From an archaeon (GTDB lineage Archaea > Hydrothermarchaeota > Hydrothermarchaeia > JALTZZ01 > JALUTC01): DNA of 9,899 nucleotides. A model generated the notes under the pieces. That model made no database searches, was not told where the DNA came from, and saw only the letters and a program-made list of their open reading frames with translations. The position numbers and the translations under genes were made by a program. Shown here in pieces: positions 258 to 9,899 of the stretch. Positions within the stretch are counted from its first letter, which is position 1. Each line of letters begins with the position of its first letter. Where the stretch lies: NCBI GenBank assembly GCA_027051265.1, contig JALTZH010000207.1, forward strand, positions 1 to 9,899, given 5' to 3'.

Positions 258-1454
258 ATGCATCACAATATAGAACAGTATAAGAACAATGTCTTAAATT
301 TCTTTCTTAAGTTTCTAGAAATAGATGCTGTCAATCCATCATTTGGTGGAAGAGGAGAATATGAGAGAGCAAATTTTCTCGAAAACTATTTAGAGGAATT
401 AGGATTAAAAGTTACAAGAATCGATTATAAAGATGATAAAGGTTATATAAGACCCAATATAATTACAGGTATAGATAACAGAAGGGATAAGAGCATCTGG
501 TTTTTATTACATTTGGATACTGTTGATCCTGGAAATTTGGATTTATGGAAATATGATCCATTTAAACCTGTAATTGTTGACGATAAAATATTTGGTAGAG
601 GTTCTGAAGATAATGGGCAAGCGATTGCATCAGTTCTTCTCTTATTAAAATATATTTTAGATAAAAATATAGATATTAAATATAACTTAAAGGTTGCTTT
701 TGTATCAGATGAAGAAGCAGGAAGTAAATATGGTATAAAAAAATTACTTAAAGAAAACATCTTTAAAGAAAACGAATACTTTATAGTACCAGATGCTTCG
801 ATTGAAAATGGAAGATTTATAGAGATTGCTGAAAAATCAATAGTCTGGTTGAAAATTAGAGTTATCGGCAAACAAGGACATGCAGCAATGCCAGATCATG
901 CAATTAATGCTTCAAGAATTTCAATGAAACTTTGTTTAGAAATCGATGAATTTTTACATAGAAAATATTCAAAAAGAAACGATTTCTTTAATCCACCGAT
1001 ATCAACCTTTGAGATAACAAAGAGGGAAAGAAACGTAAACAGTATAAATATAATACCTGGAGAAGATGTAACGTATTTTGATTTTAGAGTGTTACCTGAA
1101 TATAACATAGATGATATATTAAATGATATATATAAAATAAAAAATAAATATGAGAAGAATTATAATGTTAGAGTTGAAATCGAATGCATTGCAAGAGATG
1201 AATGTTATAAAATAACGAGTCCAAATTCTTTTATATATAAAATTCTGGAGAAATCAATAGAGATAAATAGAGGGTTTAAACCAAAACCTATTGGTATAGG
1301 TGGTGGTACATATGCAAGATACCTACGAAATAAAGGATACGATGCAGTAGTATGGCAGACGACGGAAAATAAAGCGCATCAGGTAAATGAATACTGTCGA
1401 ATTTCAAATATATTAGAGGATGCAAAGGTATTTTTAACATGTTTTCTCATCTAG
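258..1454 (+). CDS. M20-family metallohydrolase (ArgE/DapE/carboxypeptidase-like)
   Basis: This 398-residue protein has the full M20 two-metal centre. Visible ligands are H85 in the HLD motif (D87 beside it), bridging D118 in GRGSEDN, E153, D179 in VPDA, and H374 near the C-terminus; E152 is the expected general base. A GKQGHAA stretch (204-210) marks the inserted dimerisation domain, roughly residues 190-300. GIGGGTYARYL lies before the C-terminal His. The family hydrolyses amide bonds of N-acyl amino acids or peptides: N-succinyl-diaminopimelate, N-acetylornithine, LysW-bound intermediates or dipeptides. The sequence alone does not choose between these, and no amino-acid biosynthesis gene lies beside it. 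ATG at 258 gives normal family length but has no Shine-Dalgarno sequence. The TATA-like ATTATAAATA at 243-252 is too close to the ATG to be its promoter. The gene ends in a CTAG shared with the convergent acidic gene. Confidence 0.9.
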   Translation: MHHNIEQYKNNVLNFFLKFLEIDAVNPSFGGRGEYERANFLENYLEELGLKVTRIDYKDDKGYIRPNIITGIDNRRDKSIWFLLHLDTVDPGNLDLWKYDPFKPVIVDDKIFGRGSEDNGQAIASVLLLLKYILDKNIDIKYNLKVAFVSDEEAGSKYGIKKLLKENIFKENEYFIVPDASIENGRFIEIAEKSIVWLKIRVIGKQGHAAMPDHAINASRISMKLCLEIDEFLHRKYSKRNDFFNPPISTFEITKRERNVNSINIIPGEDVTYFDFRVLPEYNIDDILNDIYKIKNKYEKNYNVRVEIECIARDECYKITSPNSFIYKILEKSIEINRGFKPKPIGIGGGTYARYLRNKGYDAVVWQTTENKAHQVNEYCRISNILEDAKVFLTCFLI

Positions 1455-1672
1455 AATTCTTCTTCCTCTTCTTCTTCAAATTCTTCTTCCCATTCTTCCT
1501 CTTCTTCTTCAAACTCCTCTTCCTCTTCTTCCCATTCCTCTTCTTCATCTATTTCCTCTTCTTCCTCTTCCCACTCTTCTAGGTCCTCTTCCTCTTCTTC
1601 GAATTCTTCTTCAAACTTTAAATAAGCATTATGTATTTCATCGTAATTCAAAGTATTAGTTATTACAACCAT
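1451..1672 (-). CDS. Small, extremely Glu-rich protein with regularly spaced aromatics
   Basis: This 73-residue protein has no family I recognise. Residues 1-19 (MVVITNTLNYDEIHNAYLK) have ordinary composition. Residues 20-73 are almost only Glu plus a few Asp, broken by single hydrophobics: F20, F24, L31, W34, I41, W47, F54, W61, F65 and a terminal F73. Many are about seven residues apart, which would put an aromatic stripe on an acidic helix. The start is set by AGGTGA (1683-1678) five bases before ATG 1672; a GTG at 1681 and an ATG at 1678 are in frame but lie inside that Shine-Dalgarno sequence. GAA and GAG codons are mixed, which argues against plain triplet slippage. The gene converges on the M20 gene, with the two TAG stops overlapping in one CTAG, and diverges from mtd. 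Inferred roles include binding a basic partner or cations, a DNA mimic, or a protein chaperone; none is shown. Confidence 0.7.
   Translation of the reverse strand: MVVITNTLNYDEIHNAYLKFEEEFEEEEEDLEEWEEEEEEIDEEEEWEEEEEEFEEEEEEWEEEFEEEEEEEF
1456..1618. repeat. Polypyrimidine/polypurine tract inside the acidic gene
   Basis: The plus strand here is almost pure C/T, mainly TTC and CTC triplets, with a purine at the codons for Trp, Phe and Ile. It contains imperfect copies of a unit encoding W-E6-F-E6-W. It is explained by the Glu codons of the minus-strand gene. Its strand asymmetry and near mirror symmetry could in principle form triplex DNA and make the tract prone to length change. Confidence 0.7.
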
Positions 1673-1696
1673 CGTCATCACCTTTTAATTAAAACA

Positions 1697-1725
1697 ATAA
1701 ATTAAAAAGCAAAACGTTTTAGGAA
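1697..1725 (-). promoter_or_regulatory. Probable promoter of the acidic gene
   Basis: On the minus strand, TTCCTAAAACGTTTT (1725-1711) is followed by a TATA-like TTTTTAATTTA (1708-1698), whose centre is about 31 bases before ATG 1672. The AAAACGTTTT core (1711-1720) is a perfect palindrome. A TATA box this close would start transcription around the Shine-Dalgarno sequence. A second candidate, GATTTATC at about 1744-1737, would leave a leader of about 40 bases. The choice needs a mapped 5' end. Confidence 0.4.
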
Positions 1726-1850: not shown

Positions 1851-2672
1851 ATGGTAAAGATTGGAATAGCAAAAACTGGTAATATAACTACTAGTATAAT
1901 TCTTGAACATTTATTAGATGAAAGAGCTGATAGAGAAGATATTGAAATACGAGTGTTCTCTTCAGGTCCAAAAATGAGAGAAAAGGATTGCAGAGAGATT
2001 TTATCCAGAGTTATCGAATATAATCCTGATATAATTATCTATATAACACCAAACGCTTCTTTGAAGCATGTACAAAGAAATATAGAAAAATATCTTACAA
2101 ATAAGAATGCTGTAATCATAAGTGATGCACCTTCAGAGAAAATCGTAAAAAAACTTGAGGAACTAAATCTTGGATATATAATAGTAAAGGGAGATCCAAT
2201 GATTGGTGCAAGAAGAGAGTTTTTAGATCCTATAGAAATGGCAATATTTAATGCTTCGATGCTTAAAATTCTTTCAATTATAGGTGTTTTGAGAATAATT
2301 TTAGAAGAGGTTGATAAAACGATTGATGCTTTAAAGAAGGGTTCTAAATATTTACCTAAGATGATAATAGATTCCAATACATTGTTATCGAAGGATTACA
2401 TAAAAAATCCATATGCAAAATCGTTAATCTACTCTATATATGAAACATTAATAAAAGTTGGTGAAATAAATGTTACAGCATGTTTCGTAGAGAAAGATTG
2501 GAAAAAATATACGTACATGGTTTCATCAACACATTTGTTATTACAAAAACTCGAAGAACTTGCTGAAGAGATAAGAAGAATGGAAATTTATAGTGACGAT
2601 GTGTTAAGAACACCACATCACAGAGATGGAAGCGTCCTGATGAAAAGAAAACTCATAGAAAAACCGAAATAA
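1851..2672 (+). CDS. mtd: F420-dependent methylene-tetrahydromethanopterin dehydrogenase, divergent
   Basis: Mtd reversibly oxidises methylene- to methenyl-tetrahydromethanopterin with coenzyme F420, in the cytoplasm, within the C1 pathway of methanogens, Archaeoglobi and related archaea. The 273-residue length is normal. Family signatures are LLDERADR (21-28), GYIIVKGDPMIGARREF (108-124) followed by LDPIEMA, NPYAK (about 186-190) and LRTPH (252-256). The sequence is nevertheless divergent. The start reads KTGNITTS where I recall KCGNIGTS. The Pro-rich loop I recall as PNPAAPGP is replaced by PNASLKHV (67-74). The late SAHEML segment is SSTHLLL. Family membership is clear; full activity is probable but not certain because of these changes. 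The gene has its own promoter and is followed after 17 bases by the prenyl synthase, so it may head a transcription unit. Confidence 0.9.
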   Translation: MVKIGIAKTGNITTSIILEHLLDERADREDIEIRVFSSGPKMREKDCREILSRVIEYNPDIIIYITPNASLKHVQRNIEKYLTNKNAVIISDAPSEKIVKKLEELNLGYIIVKGDPMIGARREFLDPIEMAIFNASMLKILSIIGVLRIILEEVDKTIDALKKGSKYLPKMIIDSNTLLSKDYIKNPYAKSLIYSIYETLIKVGEINVTACFVEKDWKKYTYMVSSTHLLLQKLEELAEEIRRMEIYSDDVLRTPHHRDGSVLMKRKLIEKPK

Positions 2673-4625: not shown

Positions 4626-4655
4626 ATTTTTAATTTAATTGTTGAGGTGAATTTA
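4626..4655 (+). promoter_or_regulatory. TATA-like element and Shine-Dalgarno sequence of the aIF2-beta gene
   Basis: TTTTTAATTTAATTG starts just after the TBP stop, and AGGTGA (4645-4650) lies five bases before ATG 4656. The Shine-Dalgarno sequence and spacing match those of the minus-strand acidic gene. It fixes the start at 4656, not at the in-frame GTG 4647 that lies inside the ribosome site. The TATA-like sequence could start a separate transcript for aIF2-beta-secFD, or only reflect A/T richness. Confidence 0.5.
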
Positions 4656-5288
4656 ATGCAAAACGATGAAGAATATTTAAAATTATTAGAACGAGCTTAC
4701 ATATTGTTACCTGAAACTGCCACTATAACTGTCAGATTCGTACCACCAAAAATTAAATCCCAGATTCAAGGAAAGAACACCGTAATTTTAAACATATCAG
4801 AGGTTTCAAAGCTTATAAATAGAGATGCTGATTTGCTCGTTAAATATCTTCTAAAAGAACTTGCTACTAGTGGAATGTTCGACGGAAATCATCTTATCCT
4901 AAAAGGTAATTTCAGACAAGAACAAATACAGAGAAAGTTTGAAAATTTCCTATACGATTACGTCATATGTCCATCCTGCGGTAAACCGGATACGAAATTA
5001 ATTAAGGAAGGAAGAATATTCCTACTTAAATGTGATGCCTGTGGTTCAAGGAATCCAATAGGATTAGCCAAATTTGCCAGAAAAATTACTGAAGGAAAAA
5101 TTAAAGAAGGAGATATACTGAAGGTTTATATATCAAGACTTAATGAACAAGGAGATGGTATTGCAGAACATTCGGGATATACTGTTATCATTCCCGGAGC
5201 TAAAGATGGAGAGGTTGTAAAGGTGAAAGTAAAGAAAATTGAAAACAACAAGATATATGCGGAAATAATAGAAAGACAAAAGGTTTAA
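4656..5288 (+). CDS. Translation initiation factor aIF2 beta subunit with C-terminal TRAM domain
   Basis: aIF2-beta is part of the heterotrimeric aIF2 that carries initiator Met-tRNA to the ribosome. This 210-residue form has an N-terminal helix, the central alpha-beta domain (about 20-95, with GKNTVILN and LATSG) and a zinc ribbon with CPSC (C105, C108) and CDAC (C126, C129). From about residue 150 there is a TRAM domain (GDILKVYISRLNEQGDGIAE, then YTVIIPGAKDGEVVKVKV). TRAM is an RNA-binding fold. Its fusion to aIF2-beta is known in some euryarchaea and absent from others, so it is a lineage hint. The chosen ATG has AGGTGA five bases upstream. The stop is one base before secF, so the two are probably translated in a coupled way. 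Confidence 0.95.
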   Translation: MQNDEEYLKLLERAYILLPETATITVRFVPPKIKSQIQGKNTVILNISEVSKLINRDADLLVKYLLKELATSGMFDGNHLILKGNFRQEQIQRKFENFLYDYVICPSCGKPDTKLIKEGRIFLLKCDACGSRNPIGLAKFARKITEGKIKEGDILKVYISRLNEQGDGIAEHSGYTVIIPGAKDGEVVKVKVKKIENNKIYAEIIERQKV

Positions 5289-5289
5289 C

Positions 5290-6150
5290 ATGAAGAAATC
5301 TATCGATGAAGTAATTAGTTCAATAGCGGATCAAATTGATAGATTAAAATTCATTCCTTTATTATTTCTTGTTTTTTCATTTCTTATCTTATTAATATTT
5401 ATAGATGATATAAAACTCGGAATTGAATTTAAAGGTGGAACTTTTATAGAAATAATTGGAAAGCATGAGATACAATTTAAAGATGGGTTTGATTATTCGT
5501 TAGAATATGCAAGAGATACATTCGGAAATGTATATACAAGAATATTCATTGATAGATTTTTGAACGTTAGTGAAATAAACAATCTCGTATCATATTTTGA
5601 ATCAATAGGAATAGATAGAGATTCGGTATCGATTGAGCAAATATCACCCACTTTTGGTAGAGAATTCTTTAAACAAGTTATAATGGCTCTCATGTTTGCC
5701 TTTGCTTTGATGTCTTTTGGTGTATTTTTAAGATTTAGATCACCAATACCAGCATTAACAATAATAATTTCAATTGTATCTGATATTGTAACGACGTTGG
5801 CATTTATAATTATTTTAGGAATAGAATTTACAAAGGGTGTTTTTCTTGCGTTGTTGTTGTTAATAGGTTATGGTGTAGATTCAAACGTATTGCTAGCGAC
5901 TAGAGTATTAAAAGAATATAAAAGATTCAAAGATGGATATATCTCCGCATTTAAAACAGGAATTCTAATGACAATTACAACGATATCTGCAGGTATAGCT
6001 CTTTACACGTTTTCAGCCACAAAAATACTTAAAGATATCGCACTCGTTGCTGTAATTGGTTTAGCATCTGATTTTATATATACTTGGTTTCTCAATTCTT
6101 ACTTAATTAAAAAAATAATTACAAAGAGGAGAAGAAAATGGAGATATTAA
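5290..6150 (+). CDS. secF: Protein-export membrane protein SecF
   Basis: SecF pairs with SecD in the cytoplasmic membrane to help Sec-dependent export. The protein is 286 residues. Transmembrane helix 1 is about 20-38 (PLLFLVFSFLILLIF), followed by LGIEFKGGTFIEI, the family's start of the extracytoplasmic P1 domain (about 40-125). Five more helices follow from about 127 to 272, with GYGVDSNVLLATRVLKEYKR after helix 4 and a basic C-terminus (KRRRKWRY). That layout is typical of the RND-like export family. AAAGGT lies about six bases before the ATG as a Shine-Dalgarno sequence. It begins one base after the aIF2-beta stop and overlaps secD by 13 bases. Confidence 0.95.
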   Translation: MKKSIDEVISSIADQIDRLKFIPLLFLVFSFLILLIFIDDIKLGIEFKGGTFIEIIGKHEIQFKDGFDYSLEYARDTFGNVYTRIFIDRFLNVSEINNLVSYFESIGIDRDSVSIEQISPTFGREFFKQVIMALMFAFALMSFGVFLRFRSPIPALTIIISIVSDIVTTLAFIIILGIEFTKGVFLALLLLIGYGVDSNVLLATRVLKEYKRFKDGYISAFKTGILMTITTISAGIALYTFSATKILKDIALVAVIGLASDFIYTWFLNSYLIKKIITKRRRKWRY

Positions 6151-7307
6151 AAGAGAAGGAAATAATTTTACTTATAATTTTTGTAGCAATTTCAGCACTA
6201 TCACTTGGAGTAAATGGTATAAATTATGGAATCGATTTACAAGGAGGAGCAGAGATAAAATTAAAAACCGAAAAACCATTATCTGAAAAAAATCTAAGTG
6301 AAATTGTTAAAATTCTTGAAACAAGGTTTAATGCAAGAGGTGTAAGAGATGTTAACATATATGCTTGGGGTAAGGAATACATAATAGTGCAGATCGCTGG
6401 AATCTCAGTTGAAGAAGCAAGAAAACTTGCTGAAAGTCAAGGTAAGCTAGAAGTTAAAATCGGTAATATAACAGTATTTACTGGTAGAGATATAATCAGA
6501 ATAGAACCTTATGAATTAAATCCAGAAACTCAAAGATATGGTGTTCCATTTACAATAACAGAAGAAGCCGCTCGTAGATTTAGAGACGTAGCCATTGCAA
6601 CTAATTTCTCTCTACCTGTTGATATGTATTTAGATGATAATCTGGTAAATTCTGCACCTATAGGAGAGGATTTGAAACTAGCAATGTTGAGAGGAGAGGT
6701 TGTTAAAGCATTGATTCTTGAAACTGGATATGGTGAGGATGCAAAAAAAGAAGCTGAAAGAGTTGAGATAATATTGAGAAGTGGTGTCCTACCTATAAAG
6801 CTTAAGACGGAATCTGTTTTGGAAATACCACCAAGATTAGGAGAGAGATTTAAGGAATATGCAGCAATAGCTGCTGGAGCTGCAATAATTTTGGTTTCAG
6901 TAATAATAGCATCTCGTTATAAAAACTATAAACTATCGTTTCTAATAATAATAACACTGATATCAGAAATTTTAATAATACTTGGCATATCTTCATTGAT
7001 TGGTCATGACTGGGATCTTGCATCAATTGCTGGTTTGATAATAGCAATAGGAACTGGAGTTGATCATCAGATAATAATTGCCGATCAACTTATAAGAGGT
7101 AAAGAAAGAAGTTTTAGAATTAGATTAAAGACAGCATTATTTATACTCGTAACATCTTGGGTATTATTGGTACTTGCAATGATGCCTCTATTTTATATTG
7201 GAATCGCAATGCTAAAAGGTTTTGCTCTTATAACAATCATAGGATATACTGTAGGAGTATTTATAACAAGGCCTGCTTTTGCTAAGCTTTTGATAAGAGT
7301 GCTATAA
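6138..7307 (+). CDS. secD: Protein-export membrane protein SecD
   Basis: SecD forms the SecDF accessory complex of the translocon. This 389-residue archaeal form has helix 1 at about 8-25, then GINYGIDLQGGAEIKLK, the family signature opening the large external domain. Within that domain, LETRFNARGVRDVNIYAWG is the usual P1 motif. Five helices follow from about residue 238, including LIIAIGTGVDHQIIIADQ, the archaeal version of the helix-4 motif. The length is well below many bacterial SecD proteins but usual for archaea. GAGGAG (6126-6131) lies six bases before the ATG, within the end of secF, and the overlap suggests translational coupling. The secF-then-secD order is the archaeal one. Confidence 0.96.
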   Translation: MEILKEKEIILLIIFVAISALSLGVNGINYGIDLQGGAEIKLKTEKPLSEKNLSEIVKILETRFNARGVRDVNIYAWGKEYIIVQIAGISVEEARKLAESQGKLEVKIGNITVFTGRDIIRIEPYELNPETQRYGVPFTITEEAARRFRDVAIATNFSLPVDMYLDDNLVNSAPIGEDLKLAMLRGEVVKALILETGYGEDAKKEAERVEIILRSGVLPIKLKTESVLEIPPRLGERFKEYAAIAAGAAIILVSVIIASRYKNYKLSFLIIITLISEILIILGISSLIGHDWDLASIAGLIIAIGTGVDHQIIIADQLIRGKERSFRIRLKTALFILVTSWVLLVLAMMPLFYIGIAMLKGFALITIIGYTVGVFITRPAFAKLLIRVL

Positions 7308-8392: not shown

Positions 8393-9899
8393 ATGATAAA
8401 AATATTTATCCTTTTAATACTTTTGTTTGGAGTCTCTGTTGCATCAGAGATGAAAGAAATAGGTTATGGAACAATTCCATTCTTTGAAGTTGAGTCGTAT
8501 GAGAAGCTTGATTTAAATAAGGATGGTGTTTATGATGCAGTAATACTAGCATCAAGAAATAATCTATACCTAATAAATACAGGTGGCGTTAAAAATATAT
8601 ATGGATTTCCCAGCATAATTCAGAAGGTATCGAATATCGATTGGAACAAAGATGGGTTTAAGAATGAGATTATAGTAGTGGCGGATAAAATATATATTCT
8701 CAGTGATAAAGGGAATATATTATACGAAATTAATGATACAGGATATGATGTTTGTAGTATTGATTTTGATAACGATGGTTATGAAAATGAGATAGTACTA
8801 GGAAAAGGTAGAAAAGTCGTGATATACGGAAAGGATAAGAAATTTTTTGAAAGAGAAATCGGTATAACTCGTGTCGAAGTAAGTTGTTTCAGAAATAAGT
8901 TTATAGCTTTTTCAGCAAATATTCTCGAAGTATATGAAGGTAAAAGCCAAAAACTTTTTAAACAATTGGAAAATGGCAAAATATTCGATGCTATATTTAT
9001 AGATTTAGATAAGGATAAGAAATATAATGATATCGCTGTTCTCCTTTCAAATGGTTACGTTTATGTTTACAAAGACTATTCTAAAGAATTACCTAGAAAA
9101 TATATAAGTTTAAATACAAAATGTTATTTAAAAATATTTCCATACGATATTGATTACGATGGATATGAGGAAGATTTTGGCATAATTAATATTGATCTAT
9201 ATTTAATCACAGCAGAAAAAGAAAAAATACCGTTTGGTATATTTGCATCATGTCCAGATTCGTTTGATCTTATTGATTTAGATGGGGATAAAATTTTAGA
9301 CGATATAGTATTAGGAAAGAAAGGAGACAAAGGATATATAGCCGTTATGAATTCTGGTAAGGAAGTTTACAAATTTAAATTTAAGATAACTGTAAATAGA
9401 AAAGAAGAAGAGATATCATCTGAGAGATATAATAAAACGGCTGCTGACTTCATATTCTCTCTAGATTTGGATGGTGATAGAATTATCGGTGAATTTATCG
9501 TTCTAAATTTACTGGAAGGAAAATATTACATATTAAAACCATTGGTGATTGATAAAACCAGAAAAAGAGAAAGAGAGATTATATTGTTAGCTAATAGTAT
9601 AGATTATAAGTTATCTGAAAAATTTAGAAAATATATAACAGATAAGGGTCATAGATTAATACATGTAACAGCAAATAATTTTTCAGCGTATAAAAGTGAA
9701 CGTTACATCATTATACTTGGAGGACATAAAGCTTATGAAGGGGTAGGAGATATCGTTAAGACTTTACTAAAAACATTACCAGTTTATCTCTATGAGGATT
9801 ACATTAGAGAAATCGAAAGGATGTATGAAGTTATAAAGCTAAAGGATGTATATTCGAAAGGTCAAGTCATTTACATAATTGCAGGTAGAGATAGATATA
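8393..9899 (+). CDS. Secreted beta-propeller (FG-GAP/EF-hand-like repeat) surface protein, C-terminus cut by window edge
   Basis: The frame stays open for 502 codons to the window edge. Residues 1-18 form a signal peptide (KIFILLILLFGVSVAS). Seven Asp-rich D-x-D/N-x-D loops follow, at about D40, D83, D124, D204, D252, D295 and D358, each followed by a hydrophobic strand, as in IDFDNDGYENEIVLG. They recur every 41-48 residues, with larger gaps at 124-204 and 295-358. The first gap holds a degenerate blade around 165-182. This is an FG-GAP-like propeller with probable calcium loops, seven or eight blades. Residues from about 395 form a second domain with IIILGGHKAYEGVG and GQVIYIIAGRDRY, resembling a C-terminal domain of archaeal S-layer-type proteins (from memory). 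Substrate or ligand is unknown. There is no Shine-Dalgarno sequence. Confidence 0.8.
   Translation, partial: MIKIFILLILLFGVSVASEMKEIGYGTIPFFEVESYEKLDLNKDGVYDAVILASRNNLYLINTGGVKNIYGFPSIIQKVSNIDWNKDGFKNEIIVVADKIYILSDKGNILYEINDTGYDVCSIDFDNDGYENEIVLGKGRKVVIYGKDKKFFEREIGITRVEVSCFRNKFIAFSANILEVYEGKSQKLFKQLENGKIFDAIFIDLDKDKKYNDIAVLLSNGYVYVYKDYSKELPRKYISLNTKCYLKIFPYDIDYDGYEEDFGIINIDLYLITAEKEKIPFGIFASCPDSFDLIDLDGDKILDDIVLGKKGDKGYIAVMNSGKEVYKFKFKITVNRKEEEISSERYNKTAADFIFSLDLDGDRIIGEFIVLNLLEGKYYILKPLVIDKTRKREREIILLANSIDYKLSEKFRKYITDKGHRLIHVTANNFSAYKSERYIIILGGHKAYEGVGDIVKTLLKTLPVYLYEDYIREIERMYEVIKLKDVYSKGQVIYIIAGRDRY

Follow-up and report, generated by a model that had tools for sequence, protein, structure and literature searches.

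APLF has a disordered acidic domain that binds histones, imitating DNA in its contacts with them and placing aromatic anchors in their hydrophobic pockets; when these anchors are mutated together, histone binding in cells is lost (PMC9328677). In Dss1/Sem1, a disordered ubiquitin-binding motif places aromatic residues, with two or three residues between them, in an acidic context (PMC9381478). A 73-residue archaeal protein that consists largely of glutamate resembles both. It is encoded in the window analyzed here, a complete 9899-base contig (G000:C207) from a 1.46-Mb, 95%-complete archaeal MAG (G000), and has an orthologue in a sister genome (G001). Like the acidic domain of APLF, the proteins of both species are acidic chains with aromatics spaced along them, and like Dss1/Sem1, the window protein is small, free, and highly acidic with its aromatics in acidic surroundings. 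Extreme negative charge and expected disorder are further features that it has in common with prothymosin-alpha-like proteins and with the acidic tails of ribosomal-protein and histone chaperones.

The APLF acidic domain is part of a larger eukaryotic protein, whereas the glutamate protein is a free archaeal microprotein made of almost nothing but Glu. Its bulky residues (Trp, Phe, Leu, and Ile) are regularly spaced, no sequence homology to APLF was detected, and histone binding would be assigned to it by analogy. Dss1 is likewise not homologous, and its close aromatic pairing is not the pattern found here: the bulky residues mostly have five or six residues between them, so that gaps of 6-7 dominate, with gaps of 3-4 occurring three times in the window protein and a single gap of 4 in the orthologue. 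Prothymosin-like chains have no regularly spaced aromatics. They also come from a different domain of life, and no homology to them was detected. An acidic stretch with interspersed aromatics, a feature of histone chaperones, is present in the window protein and conserved in G001, and the relationship suggested by this likeness is one of analogy, not of membership. Similar archaeal proteins were not found in the literature.

A glutamate/aromatic ORF that converges on an M20 hydrolase gene

Translation bears out the first-pass annotation of a 73-residue open reading frame, with exact coordinates (Table 1). Its nonrepetitive N-terminal part leads into a tail that had been described as nearly all Glu. 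The Glu content is indeed extreme, but the wording is slightly strong for 42 of 54 residues (78%), the remainder being 2 Asp and 10 F/W/L/I residues. The description of Glu runs three to seven residues long also holds broadly, except for one run of just two. The whole protein has a calculated mass of 9.4 kDa, 59% Glu, a net charge of about -45 at pH 7, and a pI of about 4.05 that is close to the floor of the method. Its bulky residues fall at positions 20, 24, 31, 34, 41, 47, 54, 61, 65, and 73, which gives gaps of 4, 7, 3, 7, 6, 7, 7, 4, and 8. The DNA that encodes the tail contains imperfect tandem repeats (33-base unit, 2.5 copies, 86%).

A Shine-Dalgarno sequence and a mixture of GAA and GAG codons are both present, as originally reported. 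The codon mixture had been offered as a sign of selection and cannot serve as one, because the GAA:GAG ratio of the ORF (32:11) is the same as that of the ten other genes in the window (167:55). An open frame is also weak evidence here, since a nearly all-purine tract is almost sure to leave some frame open, and the case for this ORF consequently had to rest on its relatives.

The ORF converges on a gene for an M20-family metallohydrolase (NCBIfam PRK13983). The TAG stop codon of the M20 gene (1452-1454) and that of the Glu ORF (1451-1453 on the minus strand) overlap in the palindrome CTAG (1451-1454). Elsewhere in the window, the gene at 4647-5288 (+) encodes aIF2-beta with a C-terminal TRAM domain and adjoins the gene for TATA-binding protein, and 5290-7307 (+) holds secF and secD in that order with a 13-base overlap. 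The protein encoded at 8393-9898 (+), which is cut by the contig end, has a hydrophobic start resembling a signal peptide, a weak FG-GAP match, and four D-x-[DN]-x-D-G calcium-binding-like motifs at residues 40, 83, 124, and 252.

Table 1. Features of the Glu/aromatic locus and its immediate surroundings in the window
Feature	Position	Strand	Description
M20-family metallohydrolase	258..1454	+	Convergent neighbour; 72% identical in G001 and convergent there too
Glu/aromatic ORF, 73 aa	1451..1672	-	Translation MVVITNTLNYDEIHNAYLKFEEEFEEEEEDLEEWEEEEEEIDEEEEWEEEEEEFEEEEEEWEEEFEEEEEEEF, then stop; orthologue in G001
N-terminal part of the ORF			Residues 1-19; nonrepetitive
Glu-rich tail of the ORF	1454..1615	-	Residues 20-73; 54 residues, 42 Glu, W/F/L/I every 3-8 residues
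Conserved promoter and leader	1673..1713	-	TTTGCTTTTTAATTTATT (1696-1713) and Shine-Dalgarno AGGTGAT; from comparison with G001
mtd (methylenetetrahydromethanopterin dehydrogenase)	1851..2672	+	Divergent neighbour; adjacency not conserved

An orthologue in the sister genome

Searches with the Glu protein identify a single copy in G000 and another in G001 (E = 9.6e-5), an 81%-complete genome that is the sole member of the same genus in our comparison. The orthologue, MIVKYVDDNDLYNMYLRIEEEEDIEEEFEEEEWEEEEEEWEEPEEEEWEEEEEEFEEEEEWEEEEEWEEEEEEL, has 74 residues, 61% Glu, and a net charge of about -47. Its 57-residue tail contains 45 Glu and also a proline (EEPEEEE). The two proteins are 66-69% identical, depending on the alignment, and indels separate their genes. 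In G001 the gene is split by the assembly: contig C127 ends and contig C122 begins within the tract, with an exact 127-base overlap across which the orthologue was read. This overlap would be the size expected from an assembler k-mer of 127 bases, and the two contigs probably join into one gene. Each half by itself already shows the family, since C127 carries the promoter, the start, and 65 codons, and C122 carries the end of the gene, which converges on an M20 gene as in the window. The two stop codons are directly adjacent there. A small Glu/aromatic ORF, anticipated in the first-pass annotation beside mtd or M20 in related genomes, thus lies beside M20 in G001, and both its frame and the spacing of its bulky residues are kept. 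Among the three sense frames of the tract, the Glu frame alone is open in both species.

The G001 assembly breaks exactly within the Glu tract, where the branch may reflect strain variation. Genes with such tracts may often be split or lost by metagenome assembly.

The upstream region is conserved as well. The 18 bases of the promoter sequence are identical in G000 and G001 and lie 23 bases from the ATG in both. Over the 41 bases of promoter and leader, 32 are identical without gaps, compared with a best of 28 in 100,000 shuffles and a best of 23 in 25,980 placements on another G001 contig. This conservation favors the ATG at 1672 over an upstream GTG. A promoter element shared with the divergent mtd gene had also been proposed, and we reject this link. 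The longest word common to the two upstream regions is a 9-mer, CTAAAACGT, that is at chance level (p = 0.07) and absent upstream of the G001 Glu gene, and mtd is found elsewhere in G001, after a small 86-aa ORF. The Glu gene of G001 adjoins instead a gene (G001:C127:9689-10609) for what we take from its sequence to be an RsmB/NOP2-like methyltransferase. Its relative in G006 is at 61%, but G000, where the best match reaches 39%, lacks a close orthologue, and the gene offers no functional lead for the Glu protein. Within the class, highly identical copies of the M20 gene are confined to this genus, three other genomes having only weak matches, and the gene may have been gained together with the Glu ORF as a pair.

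Evidence for selection

The two genomes have diverged strongly at silent sites, as fourfold sites differ by 57% in mtd, 63% in the prenyl synthase gene, and 52% in the M20 gene. A comparison of synonymous and nonsynonymous change, as the first-pass annotation had envisaged, finds near-random third positions in the Glu codons: 16 of 39 shared codons (41%) differ between GAA and GAG, compared with 43% calculated for random choice. Glu is nevertheless kept at 39 of 42 aligned positions (93%, an upper estimate because the repeat alignment is generous), whereas the corresponding values in mtd, prenyl synthase, and M20, likewise derived from alignment counts, are 76-83%. The argument from composition stands independently of the repeat alignment. 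In 5000 runs of a neutral simulation at silent-site divergence, a mean of 5 of the 54 tail residues were left as Glu (maximum 15), and a stop codon arose in 99.8% of runs. The bulky residues are also more evenly spaced than expected from random placement, with a spacing variance of 2.8 in the window protein (null median 20, p = 8e-4) and 1.3 in G001 (null median 23, p = 5e-6), although expansion of the imperfect 33-base repeat could add to this evenness.

Conservation extends from the gene and its promoter to the frame, the composition, and the spacing. Judged from these sequences, conservation in the sister genome is the decisive evidence for more than a chance ORF, and the joint retention of frame, start codon, promoter, acidity, and regular spacing agrees with the initial proposal of a real, selected protein. 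We consider the Glu ORF almost certainly to be such a gene.

Distribution

None of the 21 further genomes of the class, which are all of the phylum's genomes in the comparison, contains a match to the Glu protein, and a profile search of 394 archaeal genomes from 253 genera gave no credible match. A candidate in G019 (E = 0.128) was rejected as an ordinary mixed-charge helical protein. Weak matches in seven other archaeal genomes (E = 0.013-0.8), several of them within long frames, were also rejected; at these loci, a count of 14 acidic residues within 30 is reached in none of the three frames. Scanning DNA for the pattern of Glu/aromatic tracts gave no hit in another three sets at phylum level (0 of 151, 0 of 5, and 0 of 115 genomes) and none in viral contigs; the pattern is strict, so a miss in these scans is weaker evidence than a miss in the profile search. 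No Pfam, NCBIfam, or PHROGs family and no PDB sequence matches above chance, in keeping with the first impression that the protein belongs to no known family. In Pfam, the window protein has no match at E values up to 10, and the orthologue matches only T-box, at a chance-level 0.055. As far as searched, the Glu family is thus an orphan family confined to a single genus, which belongs to the same class as Hydrothermarchaeum.

Alternative explanations

Expansion of a (GAR)n repeat into a translated product with weak or no specific function seems to us rather doubtful. The imperfect tandem repeats in the DNA, the indels between the two species, and the restriction to one genus would all fit this origin, but Glu is retained despite the strongly diverged silent sites, and the promoter and start are conserved. 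In addition, slippage within a Glu repeat would not by itself produce codons for Trp and Phe, which differ from GAR by two or three changes. It is extremely improbable that the tract has no protein product and that the pyrimidine-rich strand after the M20 stop acts as a terminator or some other DNA or RNA element. The plus strand is T/C-rich at 1455-1615, directly after this stop, in an arrangement conserved in G001, but the tract is much longer than an archaeal oligo-T terminator, and the single frame open in both species follows a conserved minus-strand promoter, Shine-Dalgarno sequence, and start. Changes in shared Glu codons are mostly at third positions by construction, yet Glu itself is kept.

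The tail had been pictured as a helix with an aromatic stripe. Structure prediction by AlphaFold2 from the two-sequence alignment does yield a single helix over residues 10-72 (mean pLDDT 86), but we give this result little weight because helices are often drawn for Glu-rich low-complexity chains. The stripe is rejected, since the bulky residues share a common face in neither species (resultant length R = 0.05 in both, at 100 degrees per residue). With the coiled-coil angle, the window protein reaches R = 0.50 but the G001 protein only 0.10, its heptad phase being lost. Docking on a basic protein through such a stripe, by a rigid acidic helix or a bundle of helices, is unlikely: the gaps of 3, 4, and 7 in the first half of the tail are heptad-like, but the orthologue has its proline in the middle of the tail, and poly-Glu without counter-charges is not helical at neutral pH. 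A polyanion that binds or buffers cations (Ca2+, Mg2+, or other metals), with bulky residues that keep the chain compact, is improbable. It would make use of about 45 negative charges in so small a protein, but no known metal-binding motif is present, and buffering does not require evenly spaced, conserved Trp and Phe.

A possible mode of action

Even spacing without a common helical face fits spaced anchors in a flexible chain. By analogy with the systems described above, we tentatively propose that the protein serves a basic partner as a chaperone or as a mimic of nucleic acid, and that it does so as a flexible, hyperacidic chain with aromatic anchors. The product of the ORF would be an expressed microprotein under purifying selection, and its hyperacidic chain, probably flexible and disordered, might act in the manner of nucleic-acid mimics or of the acidic domains found in histone and ribosomal-protein chaperones. 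With its Glu runs as a polyanion, the chain would cover the surface through which a very basic partner binds nucleic acid; an archaeal histone, an Alba-like protein, and a ribosomal protein are candidates for this partner. The W/F/L/I residues, one every 6-7 positions, would anchor in hydrophobic pockets of this partner, and some specificity may come from the short N-terminal part, in which N-x-Y-L-K/R-F/I immediately precedes the tail.

Docking on a basic partner, as first suggested for the protein, is plausible. A histone gene is present in G000 (at C244) and none was found in the 81%-complete G001, which leaves histone as just one candidate beside ribosomal and Alba-like proteins. Besides the missing G001 histone, three observations speak against the mechanism: searches of Pfam, NCBIfam, PHROGs, and the PDB relate the protein to no chaperone, AlphaFold2 draws its single helix, and the neighbours are not chromatin genes, with M20 alone conserved beside the Glu gene. 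A convergent gene need not share function. The more specific idea that this is a new archaeal microprotein, a free Glu-plus-aromatic "sticker and spacer" chain that acts on archaeal histones (or ribosomal proteins) by chaperoning or displacing them and originated independently of eukaryotic acidic chaperones, is quite unlikely.

The comparison of the two genes indicates that the ORF is a real, conserved, and compositionally extreme microprotein of narrow distribution. For a natural protein its product would be unusually simple, with bulky residues set at even intervals in Glu and maintained by selection. Should the partner that it shields be a basic protein of chromatin or of the ribosome, then acidic-aromatic chaperoning would have arisen in archaea in a minimal form, and the protein, which looks almost designed, would serve as a model for the binding of polyanions that carry aromatic anchors. 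The case also shows that a small, low-complexity ORF of the kind that annotation easily misses and assembly breaks can be a real gene.
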